Source: Acidilobaceae archaeon (GTDB lineage Archaea > Thermoproteota > Thermoprotei_A > Sulfolobales > Acidilobaceae). From it: a stretch of 64,000 nucleotides of DNA. The notes beneath the pieces were generated by a model that worked only from the letters and a program-made list of their open reading frames with translations, had not been told where the DNA came from and searched no databases. Of this stretch, positions 35,298 through 40,614 are shown in pieces. Where the stretch lies: assembly GCA_027037535.1 (NCBI GenBank), contig JALVZQ010000003.1, positions 124,001-188,000 of the forward strand. Direction: 5' to 3'. Each line of letters begins with the position of its first letter. Position 1 is the first letter of the stretch. A program made the position numbers and the translations under genes.

Positions 35298-36218
35298 TTG
35301 TTCATCGAGGAGACAATGGTCGAGAAACTAGTTGAGGCCGGCCGAATAGCCATAGGCGCCCGGGAACACGGAGCAAGCCTTGTCAAGCCCGGGGCCAGTG
35401 CCCGCGAGGTCTGCGAGGAGGTAGAGGACTGGATAAGGAGAAAAGGCGGGGAACCAGCGTTCCCATGCAATTTTAGCGTGGACGAGGTCGCGGCCCACTA
35501 TACGCCTGGGGTCAAGGACGATATACGTCTCCGCGGCGATGAAGTAGTCAAGATAGACGTCGGCGTCCACGTAGAAGGCTACATAGCGGATACAGCGGTT
35601 ACAGTAGACCTCTCCGGGAAATATAATCGGCTCCTTGAAGCCGCCAGTAAAGCATTGGAGGCTGTCGTGGAGATAATGAAGCCCGGGATACGGATATACG
35701 ATATCGGGAAGACAGTAGAGAACACCATTAAAAGATACGGGTACAAGCCAGTACGGAACCTCACAGGCCACACAATAGGCCACTACCTCATACACGCCGG
35801 GACAACCATACCAAACTACGCGGATAGAACAACATTCTACAAGAGGCTCCGCCCCGGAACACTGGTAGCGGTCGAGCCATTCGCCACGAATGGCAAGGGC
35901 CTCGTGAAAGAGGGGAAGATAACCAATATCTATAGCCTGACCGGTAAGAGGCCACGGGCGAAGCTGAACGAGGCCGAGTCCACAGCGTTATCTATTATAG
36001 TGGAGAAGTACAAGACGTTGCCCTTCACTCCAAGATGGCTCATAGGCGAGCTAGGAGAAGACAAGGCTGAGGCTGCTGTACGAGGACTCTACATGAAGGG
36101 CGTATTGCATGGTTACCCGATCCTCGTGGAGTCCGGTAAGGGACGGGTCTCACAGTTCGAGCACACGTTCCTAATATTGAAGGATAGGGTTATAGTGACG
36201 ACGTTGAAGCGGGACTAG
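35298..36218 (+). CDS. map: Methionine aminopeptidase, type II
   Basis: The 306-residue protein removes the initiator methionine. It has the archaeal type II pattern: FPCNFSVDEVAAHYTPG, the metal ligands VKIDVGVHVEGYIADTAVT (two aspartates), GHTIGHYLIHAG (histidine) and later TLVAVEPFATNG (glutamate), plus the winged insert typical of type II (TPRWLIGELGEDKAEAAVRGL). The closing QFEHTFLIL supplies the last glutamate ligand. The start TTG 35298 follows GGGGAGG at eight bases, better than the internal ATG 35316. Confidence 0.95.
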   Translation: MFIEETMVEKLVEAGRIAIGAREHGASLVKPGASAREVCEEVEDWIRRKGGEPAFPCNFSVDEVAAHYTPGVKDDIRLRGDEVVKIDVGVHVEGYIADTAVTVDLSGKYNRLLEAASKALEAVVEIMKPGIRIYDIGKTVENTIKRYGYKPVRNLTGHTIGHYLIHAGTTIPNYADRTTFYKRLRPGTLVAVEPFATNGKGLVKEGKITNIYSLTGKRPRAKLNEAESTALSIIVEKYKTLPFTPRWLIGELGEDKAEAAVRGLYMKGVLHGYPILVESGKGRVSQFEHTFLILKDRVIVTTLKRD

Positions 36219-36236: not shown

Positions 36237-36258
36237 GTGTTAACCGGGGAGTTAACAC
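36237..36258. repeat. 22-bp palindromic element, copy 1
   Basis: Perfect 8-bp arms GTGTTAAC and GTTAACAC flank CGGGGA. It lies between map and the DUF1512 gene, about 83 bases before the latter's ATG. Two near-identical copies occur at 39898 and 40593. The match in arms and core across three places is far beyond chance and suggests a protein-binding site or small mobile/structural element. Confidence 0.7.
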
Positions 36259-36340
36259 AAGATTTGTGTGCTGTGTTTAATAAGGCCTCTTATATTCCCA
36301 AATATACCAGGATATATCCAACGGCGGGTGCAGAATACAG

Positions 36341-37576
36341 ATGACCGACTGGGCAGCATGGATAAGCGCAATAAGCCAACTACTATTCCTAGTAATATTC
36401 CTAGCACTCTTCATGGGAGCCAACCAAAGACTACAACTATACGTCTGGACCAAGGACATACGGGCAAAACTCCTCCTACTAGAAGACCTAAAGAAACGAG
36501 CAGAGAAACAAACCCTCGACTACATGCTCGACAAGAAAGCAAAGAACCCCTCAAAAATATTGGAGAGAGTCAAGAACTTCTTCGTGATAAGCCCCGTAGA
36601 CATAGAGCCAACCGACATCATACGGAGACTCGAACACCTCATAGTAACACGAACAACGAAATACAAGGAGCTCTTCAAGACAGCAATGCCGGAAGCAAAC
36701 GAGGTAGACCGCACCAAGGCAGAGACAGCAGCGGAGATAACCGCGGTACTAGACTTCATCCACCGCTACGTTAGGCACTTGCTCCTCACAGGAGAGAAGA
36801 CAAAGAACTGGGTACTCATAATGCAGCTACAACTAGTAATGCCAATGATAGTACAACTAGCAGAAACCTACAGCAAGGCGCTAAACGATTTCCTCGTGGG
36901 GGCACCAATAGGAGACAGTGCAGGCCCAATAGTAGCAGTTAGACTAGCCGGCTACGAGGCCGAGTGGAAGACGGTAGACGAGGACACAGTCTATACTGAG
37001 GCAGAGCTAGAAGGCAGGAAACTAGTACTAGTAAAGGCGAAGGGCCCCGGATCAAACGTTGGAAGACCAGGATACGCCACCTACCAGATCATAAAGGAGA
37101 TGGTCGAGAAAGGAGAGAAACCAGCACTAATGATAACAGTAGACGCCGCGCTCAAAATGGAAGGAGAAGAAACGGGAACAGTCGCGGAAGGAGTAGGAGC
37201 CGCTATAGGAGATATAGGCCCAGAGAAGATAAGGTTCGAGAGGATCGCGGCCGAGTACAAGATACCGTTACGAGCAGTCATAATAAAGATGGGCATGGAG
37301 GAAGCAATACTAACAATGAAGAAAAAGATAAGCGACAACCTCGACAAAGCAGTAGAAACAGTCAAAAACATAATACTAGAAGAGACAAAGCCCGGCGACA
37401 TCGTGGTAGTAATAGGAGTAGGAAACAGTATAGGAGTAGGACAAAAACTAGAAGGAACAAATAAGGAACAAGAAACAAGCGTAGAGGAGCAAGCCAATGA
37501 ACAAGTATTGGAGAAACCAGCCAATAAACAACCAGAACCTAGAGAGAAAGGAGAAGAGAAGGAGGCAGAGGAATAA
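36341..37576 (+). CDS. DUF1512-family archaeal membrane-anchored protein
   Basis: The 411-residue protein has one N-terminal transmembrane segment (ISQLLFLVIFLALFMGA), a basic helical linker and a long soluble domain with a repeated glycine-rich pattern (LVLVKAKGPGSNVGRPG, GVGAAIGDIGPEKIRFE, VVVIGVGNSIGVGQ). I recognise this as the archaeal DUF1512 family, of unknown function. The last ~40 residues are a charged E/K/Q tail. It overlaps the next gene by one base (TAATG), so the two probably form a complex or at least an operon. The palindromic element copy 1 lies upstream. Coding strand is strongly A/C-skewed. Confidence 0.85.
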   Translation: MTDWAAWISAISQLLFLVIFLALFMGANQRLQLYVWTKDIRAKLLLLEDLKKRAEKQTLDYMLDKKAKNPSKILERVKNFFVISPVDIEPTDIIRRLEHLIVTRTTKYKELFKTAMPEANEVDRTKAETAAEITAVLDFIHRYVRHLLLTGEKTKNWVLIMQLQLVMPMIVQLAETYSKALNDFLVGAPIGDSAGPIVAVRLAGYEAEWKTVDEDTVYTEAELEGRKLVLVKAKGPGSNVGRPGYATYQIIKEMVEKGEKPALMITVDAALKMEGEETGTVAEGVGAAIGDIGPEKIRFERIAAEYKIPLRAVIIKMGMEEAILTMKKKISDNLDKAVETVKNIILEETKPGDIVVVIGVGNSIGVGQKLEGTNKEQETSVEEQANEQVLEKPANKQPEPREKGEEKEAEE

Positions 37577-37875
37577 TGCCCGAAACACTATATCCAGACT
37601 GGCTCCAGAGCATCATAGTCTTCATACTCCTAGGAGTAGTAATCTACATGCTCATGAGGCAAGCCAGAGAACTACGCGAAATGCAGGAACGCCTCCAGAG
37701 AAAAGTCAAACGCTACACAATAATCGACTGCAACGGAAAAGACTACAGGAGAGAATACAAGGAAGGAGACTACGTAGGAGCACAAGCCGAATGCCCAGAA
37801 AACCAGAAAGGATACATAAAAACAATCTACGCAGAGGAGCCAGAAGATAAAAACAAGAAGAAAAAGAAACAGTAA
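37576..37875 (+). CDS. Small membrane protein coupled to DUF1512 gene
   Basis: The 99-residue protein has one transmembrane helix (IIVFILLGVVIYMLM, residues ~13-28) followed by a charged helix and a small domain with two cysteines (IIDCNGKDYRREY, AECPENQKGY), and ends in a lysine-rich tail. Its ATG overlaps the stop of the DUF1512 gene. I do not recognise a named family; the coupling and similar topology point to a shared role. Confidence 0.8.
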   Translation: MPETLYPDWLQSIIVFILLGVVIYMLMRQARELREMQERLQRKVKRYTIIDCNGKDYRREYKEGDYVGAQAECPENQKGYIKTIYAEEPEDKNKKKKKQ

Positions 37876-38043
37876 ACTAGAACAGGGTACAATCCTTCAA
37901 AAACATCTATTATTAATGAAATATTCTATGGTTGAACTACTAAATCATAGGTTAGGATTACTATCTAATAAGCAAATGTTAAAGTATCATAGCCTCCGAA
38001 AAGAATATGGAGTATTCGTTTATACCTATAGAGATCATAATGG

Positions 38044-38232
38044 CTAAACCTTATCCAGATACCTCTTAAGTTCTGCTTCACTAGACTCTCCCAGTATGCA
38101 TATAAGATCCTTTAGTTTTCTCCTGATAGGTTTATTTATCCATACCTCGACTTCTTCTCCTTCCCTCAACTGTAACGGTTCCAAGGGCTTAAGAAATCCT
38201 TTTTCGTATCGTGCTCTGATTGTTTTCGACAA
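38044..38232 (-). CDS. DUF104-type antitoxin-like protein, orphan
   Basis: The 62-residue protein (MSKTIRARYEKGFLKPLEPL then LREGEEVEVWI) matches the short AF2212/DUF104 family of VapB-like antitoxins with an AbrB-like barrel. Such antitoxins usually precede a PIN-domain toxin. Here no PIN ORF follows: the next 168 bases hold only short frames. It lies 49 bases after metG on the same strand. It is either an orphan, a solo regulator or the remnant of a lost pair. Confidence 0.8.
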   Translation of the reverse strand: MSKTIRARYEKGFLKPLEPLQLREGEEVEVWINKPIRRKLKDLICILGESSEAELKRYLDKV

Positions 38233-38281
38233 GTCCTATCCCTAGTATTCAAATATGTCTAGCGGAGAAAATTAGGTTGGC

Positions 38282-39772
38282 TTAAACAATCTTCTTGAAT
38301 AGTATTGGTGCTTCGTTTACAGTGTATTCTCTTCCTTTTACTGGCTGGGCATCGTCTAGCCTTTCTATCGTGTAGCCGAATGCCTCGGCTAACCTCGTTG
38401 ACGCCCGCGGGGTTACAGGGTATAGCATTATGCTCGCGGCCCTGACTGTTTCTAGGAGACTGTATAGGTCTCTGGAGGGATCGTTTTTCTCCCATGGTTT
38501 CTCTCTGTTAATGTAGGCGTTGGCGACGCGTAGCATCTCCATTACTGCTTCTATTGCAGGAGATACCTCGTAGCTGTCTAGGCTCTCCTGGTACTTCTCG
38601 TAGGCCTTGTGGATTGCTTGCTCGAGCTCGGCGTCTATGGTTTCAGATGAGGCTCTCCCGCCTAGTTTCTTCTTGACTAGTACTCCTACTCTCCTGACGA
38701 GGTTGCCGTAGGTGTCCGCTAGCTCGCTGTTATAGATGCTGTCGAATAGTTCCTGCGTGTAGTCGACGTCCTTTGATGGGTTGAATAGCCTCATGAGGAC
38801 GTATCTTATCCCGTCGCTTCCCCTGTATCTCTCGACTAGATAGTCTATTGGTACCACGTTTCCCGCGCTCTTCCCTATCTTGAGGCCCCTGTTTATGAGG
38901 AATGCGTGGACTATCACCTTCCTAGGCGGATCAATATCTAGGGCTCTTAGCATGCTGAACCAGATCGCTGTATGGAACCATAGGATGTCTTTTCCTATGA
39001 CGTGGTGTGCCACAGGCCAGTACTTGTTGAATGTCTCTGGGTCCTCACGGTACTTTATCCCGGTTAGGTAGTTTAGGAGGGCGTCGAACCATACGTATAT
39101 CGTGTAGTCTGGGTCGAAGGGGAGCGGTATGCCCCACCATACTCTCTCCTTTGGCCTAGCAATGGATACGTCTTTCAGGCCCTCCTTCTCGATCTTGCGC
39201 AGTACCTCGTGGGCATAGCTCCGGGGATAGACGTGGTCCTCTAATACCTTCTTGAGATAGTCCTCGAACTCGCTGAGCTTGAAGTAGTAGGTTTCCTCCT
39301 CTAGCCACTCCAGGGGCTTCCTATGGATGGGGCAATAGGGTTTACCGTCTATCTCGAGGTATTCGCCTGGACTATAGAATTTCTCGCAGTCGACGCAGTA
39401 GTGGCCAGCGTAGCTTGCCTTATAGATGAGTCCCTTCCTGTAGATACGTGTAACAGCCTCTTTGACTAGCTCCTCGTGGTCTGGATCGGTTGTACGGATA
39501 AACCTGTCGTAGCTGATATCCATTAGGCTCCAATAATACTTGTATTTCTCAGCCATCTCGTCTACAAGCTCCTTCGGGTGTATGCCCCGTTTCTCGGCCG
39601 CGCGCTGGAGCTTCTGACCGTGCTCGTCTGTCCCGGTTAGGAAGAACGTGTCGTCTCCCTTCAAGCGATGGTATCTTGCTAGAGTATCGGCGTATATGGT
39701 TGTATAGGCGTGCCCGATATGTGGCTCCGCGTTCGGATAGTATATGGGTGTCGTTATGTAGAACCTCTCCAT
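38282..39772 (-). CDS. metG: Methionyl-tRNA synthetase
   Basis: The 496-residue enzyme charges tRNA-Met. HIGH motif: PHIGHAY (residues 17-23); the KMSKS loop reads KIGKS (RGLKIGKSAGN). A zinc knuckle appears as CVDCEKFY with a second half CPIH. The anticodon-binding domain shows the usual AYINREKPW. There is no C-terminal EMAP/Arc1p-like tRNA-binding domain, so the protein is the short form. GGAGGTGA lies eight bases before ATG 39772. TATA-like TTTATTTTT sits about 80 bases upstream, giving a leader of roughly 50 bases. Palindromic element copy 2 lies just beyond. Confidence 0.97.
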   Translation of the reverse strand: MERFYITTPIYYPNAEPHIGHAYTTIYADTLARYHRLKGDDTFFLTGTDEHGQKLQRAAEKRGIHPKELVDEMAEKYKYYWSLMDISYDRFIRTTDPDHEELVKEAVTRIYRKGLIYKASYAGHYCVDCEKFYSPGEYLEIDGKPYCPIHRKPLEWLEEETYYFKLSEFEDYLKKVLEDHVYPRSYAHEVLRKIEKEGLKDVSIARPKERVWWGIPLPFDPDYTIYVWFDALLNYLTGIKYREDPETFNKYWPVAHHVIGKDILWFHTAIWFSMLRALDIDPPRKVIVHAFLINRGLKIGKSAGNVVPIDYLVERYRGSDGIRYVLMRLFNPSKDVDYTQELFDSIYNSELADTYGNLVRRVGVLVKKKLGGRASSETIDAELEQAIHKAYEKYQESLDSYEVSPAIEAVMEMLRVANAYINREKPWEKNDPSRDLYSLLETVRAASIMLYPVTPRASTRLAEAFGYTIERLDDAQPVKGREYTVNEAPILFKKIV

Positions 39773-39897
39773 ATCGTCGTCACCTCCAATCGTGCCCCTG
39801 CAGTGGCCTAGACCTTGTTTAACTAGGTTATAGCAGTCGGGGAACGAGAAAAATAAAGATTGATCCCCGGGTGGGCCCCCCGGGTAGTTTTATGAGG

Positions 39898-39919
39898 GTG
39901 TTAACCGGGGGGTAAACAC
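39898..39919. repeat. 22-bp palindromic element, copy 2
   Basis: Arms GTGTTAAC and GTAAACAC flank CGGGGG, one arm mismatch from the perfect copy at 36237. It lies about 125 bases upstream of metG and directly beside a GC-rich hairpin. Confidence 0.7.
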
Positions 39920-39960
39920 CAATAATCAAATACATAAACACCCGATGGAAGAGGGCCGCC

Positions 39961-40140
39961 TCAGACAACCCAGTGCTCCACATACACCACGAATCGATCC
40001 CGTAGAGGGAGACTATTCAGAGAGCGCCTGTCTTCAACGGCGGCCCCAGGATCCAATAATATTATCTCGTCCCTAATCACAATATCTATAACAATACTCG
40101 GTTCACAATATGGACTAACGAGAATACACGGAGCGCACAA
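39961..40140 (-). CDS. Possible small protein, 59 residues
   Basis: From TTG 40140 the frame reads a hydrophobic strand-rich product (IVLCAPCILVSPY, IVIDIVIRDEIILLDPGA, RFVVYVEHWVV) that looks more protein-like than a shadow. There is no good ribosome site and no family match. The track's longer version (from 40242) runs into the neighbouring gene and is unlikely. Kept only as a possibility. Confidence 0.25.
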   Translation of the reverse strand: MCAPCILVSPYCEPSIVIDIVIRDEIILLDPGAAVEDRRSLNSLPLRDRFVVYVEHWVV

Positions 40141-40191
40141 TACTATACATCTATCATGGCGGTGCCAGAGAGATAAGAAGGGTGTATAGGC

Positions 40192-40611
40192 ATGGAGGAG
40201 ACAGGTATTCCTGGACACGCATCGAAGAATCCAAGCATGCATAGGCTACAAAGGCTCCTAGGCGAGCTGGGATTGAACTATGAGGCAGAGGGAGACGTTG
40301 TACGCATACATTATGAGGGGGTCGTGATCGAACTCAGTGATTATGGCGACGAGATACAGGTACAGGTCGAGCTGGTCCCAGAGCACAGTGATATTGTAGA
40401 CAGGGATGCATTGATGTTCTATGTCTTCGGCCTGGCATCGAGTATGCTGGGAGTCGAGGAATATGGGGTCGATTCTGTGGCAGGCTATAGCATGCTGTGG
40501 GCCTCGAAGAGATATAGTAGCTTGGAGAAGGCTGTAGGGGAGTTAGAGGAGCTTGTCAGGTTCCTTGTAGAGGCTGTGGGGAGGACTAGGAAGTGTTTAC
40601 TCCCCGGTTAA
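40192..40611 (+). CDS. Hypothetical protein
   Basis: The 139-residue protein is unrecognised. It is acidic, with strand-rich first half (VVRIHYEGVVIELSDYGDEIQVQVEL) and a helical second half, and has no membrane segment or cysteine motif. The first residues are glycine/proline-rich, and ATG 40237 (MHRLQRLLGELGLNY) may be the real start. Its last codons run into palindromic element copy 3, so the element encodes part of the C-terminus. It is convergent to the glycerate kinase gene with 7 bases between. Confidence 0.65.
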   Translation: MEETGIPGHASKNPSMHRLQRLLGELGLNYEAEGDVVRIHYEGVVIELSDYGDEIQVQVELVPEHSDIVDRDALMFYVFGLASSMLGVEEYGVDSVAGYSMLWASKRYSSLEKAVGELEELVRFLVEAVGRTRKCLLPG

Positions 40612-40614
40612 CAC
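40593..40614. repeat. 22-bp palindromic element, copy 3
   Basis: Arms GTGTTTAC and GTTAACAC flank TCCCCG. This is the reverse complement of the consensus seen at 36237 and 39898, so the element is inverted here. It spans the last codons and stop of the 139-residue gene, between convergent genes. Confidence 0.7.

Follow-up and report, generated by a model that had tools for sequence, protein, structure and literature searches.

A palindromic element beside replication origins of Acidilobaceae, dispersed on their chromosomes and abundant on Sulfolobus conjugative plasmids

Origin-associated sites with many dispersed copies are a known kind of element, of which DnaA boxes and the ucm/UBP system are examples. 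In bacteria, DnaA boxes and datA-type titration sites represent initiator-related boxes that are found at the origin as well as in dispersed copies. Here we describe a 22-base-pair (bp) palindrome with a GGGG core, which occurs three times in a 64,000-nucleotide stretch of DNA from an Acidilobaceae archaeon (GenBank assembly GCA_027037535.1, contig JALVZQ010000003.1, positions 124,001 to 188,000 of the forward strand; the whole stretch is hereafter called the window). An earlier note on this DNA had recognized the three copies and considered that they might be a regulator site, a miniature element or a site that organises the chromosome, while the link to replication origins, which is not visible inside the window, was missed. 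We argue that the palindrome is probably a protein-binding site whose fixed, ancestral places are the borders of origins, where a symmetric host protein would act beside the initiators, and that the same protein would use the dispersed and plasmid-borne sites.

Unlike a DnaA box or datA, the palindrome borders Orc1-binding boxes (ORBs) and is not itself an Orc1 box, and titration by the palindrome is a proposal of ours. The ucm motif resembles it in that a short motif is present in several origins and at hundreds of dispersed, mainly intergenic sites, where ucm is bound by a host nucleoid-associated protein (PMC12141716). However, ucm is found between the ORBs, in the unwinding region, whereas the palindrome lies outside the outer ORB with a separate ucm-like block ~115 bp away, and because of this difference in position we rejected identity with ucm. 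Identity with the ORB itself (consensus TCCANTGGAAAC...GGGG) was also rejected, as the palindrome is a separate unit adjoining the ORB and is present in the window, which has no ORB. The C2 and C3 sequences of Sulfolobus oriC1 are, by the description in a passage of PMC3718332 that cites the 2004 origin work and is our only basis of comparison, likewise palindromic and located at oriC1; the same passage states that oriC3 has none, whereas the whiP locus of Acidilobaceae carries palindrome copies, and it mentions neither the dispersal nor the plasmid load that we see here. SegB sites (PMC12284271) are also dispersed palindromes, with tens per chromosome, but differ in having a ribbon-helix-helix binder, a location mostly in genes and clustering near segAB, and since their consensus TCTAGASTCTAGA is not matched by our palindrome, identity was rejected. 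Finally, the TTAA-N7-TTAA operator of ORF80/PlrA/Stf76 (PMC4027180), which is bound by a small winged-helix protein, shares TTAA arms on Sulfolobus plasmids, yet the palindrome has a spacer of 8 (CTGGGGAG) instead of 7, a nearly invariant GGGG core and a position at the 3' side of plrA-type genes instead of forming a promoter pair upstream of its own gene, and on these counts it is not that operator. A literature search for the exact letters gave nothing relevant; the element, its phasing to ORBs, its sharing by two origin types and its plasmid load were not found in the literature searched, which did not extend to the main origin papers.

The element and its place at oriC1

Allowing two mismatches, the 22-mer was found at 25 places in the 1.65-Mb genome (G000) compared to 0 for a reversed control, and relatives carry it as well, so that the idea of a genuine element survived the check proposed in the earlier note, which had named a chance-level count and a lack of conservation in relatives as grounds for giving it up. 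The oriented 18-mer GTTWACYGGGGRGTWAAC has 26 exact places in G000, and 29 with up to one mismatch (control 0), all 29 of which retain the GGGG core. The arms around a core that the earlier note had described are therefore real, and can be refined to the conserved unit KTWWAC-YGGGGR-GTWWAM, which the GGGG core makes directional. An RNA hairpin or terminator is not supported, because the GGGG core points in either direction with respect to genes in both genomes inspected (G000 and G008) and the C-A core ends that are common in G000 would not pair. The exact 18-mer is present in 24 of the 48 genomes of the family Acidilobaceae, and its carriers in this family and among relatives include Caldisphaera, Aeropyrum, Tiamatella, Hestiella and metagenome-assembled genomes; exact matches also occur among viral contigs. 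Caldisphaera-type genomes have a longer palindrome, ATTGTTAACYGGGGRGTTAACAAT, while Aeropyrum-type genomes have the form GTATACCGGGGGGTTAAC, in just a few copies.

Copies recur across genera at a small number of shared loci. At the second of these conserved loci (tiaS/rpiA-like genes), a search for Orc1 boxes revealed ORBs in G017, G042, G023 and G000, and the outermost ORB of oriC1 is adjoined by a copy in 18 Acidilobaceae genomes, usually with a gap of 1–2 bp. The same arrangement was seen at all four Sulfolobaceae oriC1 loci checked, including those of Sulfodiicoccus acidiphilus and an S. tokodaii-like genome. The palindrome is located outside the outer ORB and the separate GTTTGTATAATG-like block inside, such that the ucm-like block lies 99–130 bp from the palindrome wherever such a block was found (~115 bp when measured from the central GTTTGTATAATG element). 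In four genomes of family f7 (L258–L261) the ORB-abutting palindrome has kept its arms (GTTTAC/GTTAAC-type) and lost the GGGG core, which is replaced by TAGA, TATA or AGGT (for example GTTTACC-TAGA-GGTAAAC), and arm-only forms occupy the same place at oriC1 in family f4 and in genome G011. The one f3 genome checked at oriC1 had no palindrome, and a search of WhiP-free families for ORBs gave no recognisable ORB array. Of all our observations, this phasing to the ORB speaks most strongly for the element being part of the origin.

Two alternatives bear directly on these observations. Many near-identical short palindromes in one genome could represent a miniature mobile element or an insertion-sequence remnant, which was one of the options in the earlier note. 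We reject this reading and regard it as barely credible, because no similarity extends past the palindrome: it ends at ~22 bp among the G000 copies, and the flanks are near random there as on the plasmids described below. Fixed spacing to ORBs across families, and arms that differ between plasmids yet stay symmetric, argue against it further. The palindrome KTWWACYGGGGRGTWWAM could also be a C2/C3-type oriC1 site that is bound by the non-initiating Orc1-2 (or Orc1-3 where present), which would modulate origins and regulate elsewhere. C2 and C3 are recognised by Cdc6-1, -2 and -3 according to the passage in PMC3718332, our element is palindromic and located at oriC1 in Sulfolobaceae, and two Orc1 genes per Acidilobaceae genome exceed the cut-off. 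We nevertheless consider this rather unlikely: the likeness is one of description (palindromic, at oriC1), the WhiP-type origin is bracketed in Acidilobaceae even though that passage gives oriC3 no C sequences, and a single Orc1 monomer usually recognises an asymmetric site (PMC12141716, on Orc1-1). Orc1 genes were also considered as autoregulated partners and dismissed, as no palindrome was found beside them except one in G008. Should C2/C3 turn out to be identical to the palindrome, the oriC1 part of our findings would be known and the remainder new.

The whiP locus as a second origin

The most constant locus is a gene of 241–260 amino acids that has copies on both sides in most Acidilobaceae, and that is bracketed also in Aeropyrum-type genomes despite their low copy number. 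Its product is predicted to contain two winged-helix domains (AlphaFold mean predicted local distance difference test score, pLDDT, of 84), for which Foldseek retrieved only generic MarR-like winged helices. We identify the gene as whiP because the full-length WhiP match in Sulfodiicoccus acidiphilus HS-1 (G156) starts at 1,016,626, directly after the published oriC-2 at 1,016,172–1,016,607, which lies upstream of whiP (PMC6647314). WhiP has been published as the initiator of oriC3, and Aeropyrum pernix has two origins in all, of which one is oriC1 and the other depends on WhiP (PMC10769869). Nearly all Acidilobaceae have one full-length match per genome, as do most of the genomes sampled from families f3, f7 and f11 and some from f4.

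In 18 of 19 loci the distance from the whiP stop to the downstream copy is 134–232 bp. This interval is slightly to clearly AT-richer than its surroundings, and CTACTACTATA, TATTATTG, TAGTAGTAG and a GTTTGTATAATG-like block are conserved within it. The downstream copy is located just outside the conserved region that holds the ucm-like block. At L127:4931-5163 and in 18 other Acidilobaceae loci, CTACTACTATA and TAGTAGTAG repeats surround the ucm-like GTTTGTATAATG block and represent candidate WhiP sites of the second origin. In Acidilobaceae, whiP is consistently accompanied by another winged-helix gene (L127:5209-5817; 202 amino acids, with a PH0730-like domain at the N terminus). The whiP-adjacent copy of 10 Sulfolobaceae is located inside an upstream NAD-kinase-like gene (L208–L220), 355–391 bp upstream of the aligned whiP start, where it is read as the codons TTA/TTG-ACY-GGG-GAG-TTA. 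The GGG, the GAG and the second TTA are invariant in all 10, while adjoining codons vary at third positions. Codon choice that is fixed beyond the protein sequence (LTGEL) can be taken as a sign of selection at the DNA level, tempered by the shared ancestry of the genera.

WhiP is a candidate to bind the palindrome: the origin copies would then be initiator sites, the dispersed copies would titrate WhiP in the manner of DnaA boxes, and conjugative plasmids would recruit the host WhiP. In line with this, copies bracket whiP more consistently than any other initiator gene, orc1-1 and orc1-2 are not bracketed (with the exception of one copy ~500 bp from orc1-1 in G008), the protein has two winged-helix domains, and WhiP is present in all families with an ORB-abutting palindrome. 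A WhiP site should lie at the WhiP-type origin wherever WhiP exists, and this is what we observe in most Acidilobaceae; f7, f4, f3 and a few Acidilobaceae, however, have WhiP and no palindrome near whiP. Moreover, the palindrome abuts the ORBs of an Orc1 origin, and the CTACTACTA/TAGTAGTAG repeats inside the WhiP-type origin offer alternative WhiP sites. WhiP as the binder thus fits the whiP locus and not the families where the palindrome is found at oriC1 only, and overall we see it as possible but somewhat unlikely.

Dispersed and plasmid-borne copies

In the window, the pattern GTGTTAACN6GTTAACAC with up to three mismatches matched exactly three times, compared to a chance expectation of 0.14 (three or more were reached in 1 of 100 shuffles), which agrees with the earlier note in the positions of the copies and in the lack of any further one. 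Copy 1 (GTGTTAACCGGGGAGTTAACAC, 36237–36258, + strand, no mismatch) is located between the stop of map (methionine aminopeptidase, 35298–36218, +) and the start of a DUF1512 gene (36341–37576, +; Pfam PF07431 and PF23542). Copy 2 (GTGTTAACCGGGGGGTAAACAC, 39898–39919, +, one mismatch) is 126 bp upstream of the start of metG (methionyl-tRNA synthetase, 38282–39772, − strand). Copy 3 (GTGTTAACCGGGGAGTAAACAC, 40593–40614, −, one mismatch) is inverted and stands between convergent gene ends, where it overlaps the last codons and the stop of a 139-amino-acid open reading frame (ORF) at 40192–40611 (+) without a Pfam match, so the element can indeed sit in coding DNA, as the earlier note had said. 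These genes are the neighbours named there, with map and metG assigned from that note and the sequence, and they are of interest as neighbours only. Downstream of metG, an ORF of 62 amino acids (38044–38232, −) looks by eye like a small DUF104-type antitoxin. Since a search of the window revealed neither an ORB nor a ucm-like block, its three copies count as dispersed ones, and belong to ~25 further dispersed sites per chromosome. The position of copy 1 is kept in a genome of the same genus (locus L097), which alone is no sign of selection because the entire stretch is 92% identical there.

Dispersed copies are enriched between genes, with an intergenic share of 14/29 in G000 (background ~14%) and 24/30 in G008 (~22%), and also between convergent gene ends; many others are inside genes. 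The neighbours examined have no function in common. G000 and the same-genus G004 share both origin loci and only three dispersed places, which means that the dispersed copies turn over while the origin copies stay. The operator of a global transcription regulator would account for the enrichment between genes on chromosomes and plasmids, as well as for several plasmid copies that lie 40–100 bp before gene starts, but we judge it improbable given neighbours without shared function, places that turn over, a large number of copies that lie within genes or between converging gene ends, and fixed copies at origins. A regulon was rejected for want of a functional theme among the neighbours, and a simple regulon, like a mobile element, is unlikely. 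The regulator option of the earlier note is thus weakly supported, whereas its chromosome-organising option stood up in the form of a chromosome-level protein-binding site, with copies that bracket both origins, are dispersed and are carried by plasmids.

Conjugative plasmids of Sulfolobus have 8–18 copies each (pNOB8 16, pBEU9E1 18, pYN01 12, pARN3 12, pMGB1 10, pTC 8) compared to nearly 0 in simulated sequence, and in the S. tokodaii-like genome 8 of 9 copies are located within ~40 kb of an integrated conjugative element. Of the cryptic plasmids, pRN1 has one copy and pRN2 none, and no copy was found in the 41 kb examined of a Thermococcus plasmid that has a related conjugation gene. The plasmid arms vary (GTAAAC, GTTAAC, GTTTAC) yet stay symmetric: positions 3 and 16 are complementary in 78% of copies (54% expected) and positions 4 and 15 in 95% (74% expected), in counts that are not independent because the plasmids are related. 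Such symmetric variation fits a homodimer that would read both arms. Among annotated plasmid copies, 23 of 46 are intergenic, as opposed to 9 expected. No WhiP gene was found in these plasmids and integrated elements, and a host protein is therefore the economical binder. Copies are also located at the 3' end of plrA/orf80-type genes, including that of pRN1 (L247:762-779; L224:3016-3033; L234:2814-2831). A TAAACTGGGGAGTTTA motif was reportedly noted in the original pNOB8 sequence paper, which we treat as a lead and not as a test.

A centromere-like site (parS or SegB-type) would pair origins and plasmids with a segregation protein, and is in keeping with a palindrome that is found at origins, dispersed on the chromosome much as SegB sites are, and on low-copy plasmids. 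A copy is located inside a ParB-type gene in pNOB8, two other plasmids and two integrated elements (L244:2660, L245:32890, L246:34204, L224:7577, L235:2774); pNOB8 has two ParB-type genes, of which only one adjoins ParA. On the other hand, the SegB consensus differs, ParB-type genes were seen on plasmids and integrated elements only, with no chromosomal one beside copies among the neighbours examined, and the chromosomal copies consist of fixed ones at origins and a remainder that clusters weakly. No copy is found just upstream of aspA in pNOB8, for which reason the AspA site was also discarded as an identity. Altogether we hold a centromere-like site to be distinctly improbable.

A host protein at origins, chromosomal sites and plasmids

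The positions, spacing, recurrence, conservation, dispersal and plasmid enrichment of the palindrome are direct observations, and taken together the origin, chromosomal and plasmid copies suggest one host protein acting at all these places. We propose that the two half sites (GTWWAC) are occupied by a homodimer of a host protein, which at origins would contact the neighbouring Orc1 or WhiP complex and set origin strength or polarity. Away from the origins, on the chromosome and on plasmids, the copies would serve to titrate this protein or to anchor and organise DNA, and not to switch individual genes. The candidate binders are WhiP, which is best placed at the whiP locus, and Orc1-2 or Orc1-3, the main alternative by way of the published C2/C3 palindromes.

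Several points weigh against such a host-protein site at origins. Its role there is deduced from position. The whiP part is not universal, because no palindrome is located near whiP in families f7, f4 and f3, in G011 and G012, and in some others. The dispersed copies cluster only weakly around origins, with 7 copies within 50 kb of the two origins of G008 where 3.2 are expected (P ~0.03), and median distance shows nothing. On plasmids, a regulatory role is possible, because half of the copies are intergenic and some are near gene starts.

More tentatively, and with some doubt, the palindrome may define a new class of origin element: a border box phased to the outermost ORB that is common to Orc1- and WhiP-type origins, with a predicted host binder that would also occupy dispersed sites and plasmids, and would so link origin control, chromosome organisation and plasmid maintenance. 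Such a class would support capture of the WhiP origin from an element of this kind. The palindrome gives a precise handle on the question of which factors act on archaeal origins in addition to the initiators, in the form of an element that is fixed beside the outer ORB in at least two families, is common to a second origin type and is abundant on conjugative plasmids. The proposal that multiple archaeal origins came from captured extrachromosomal elements thereby gains a shared cis element with which it can be tested.

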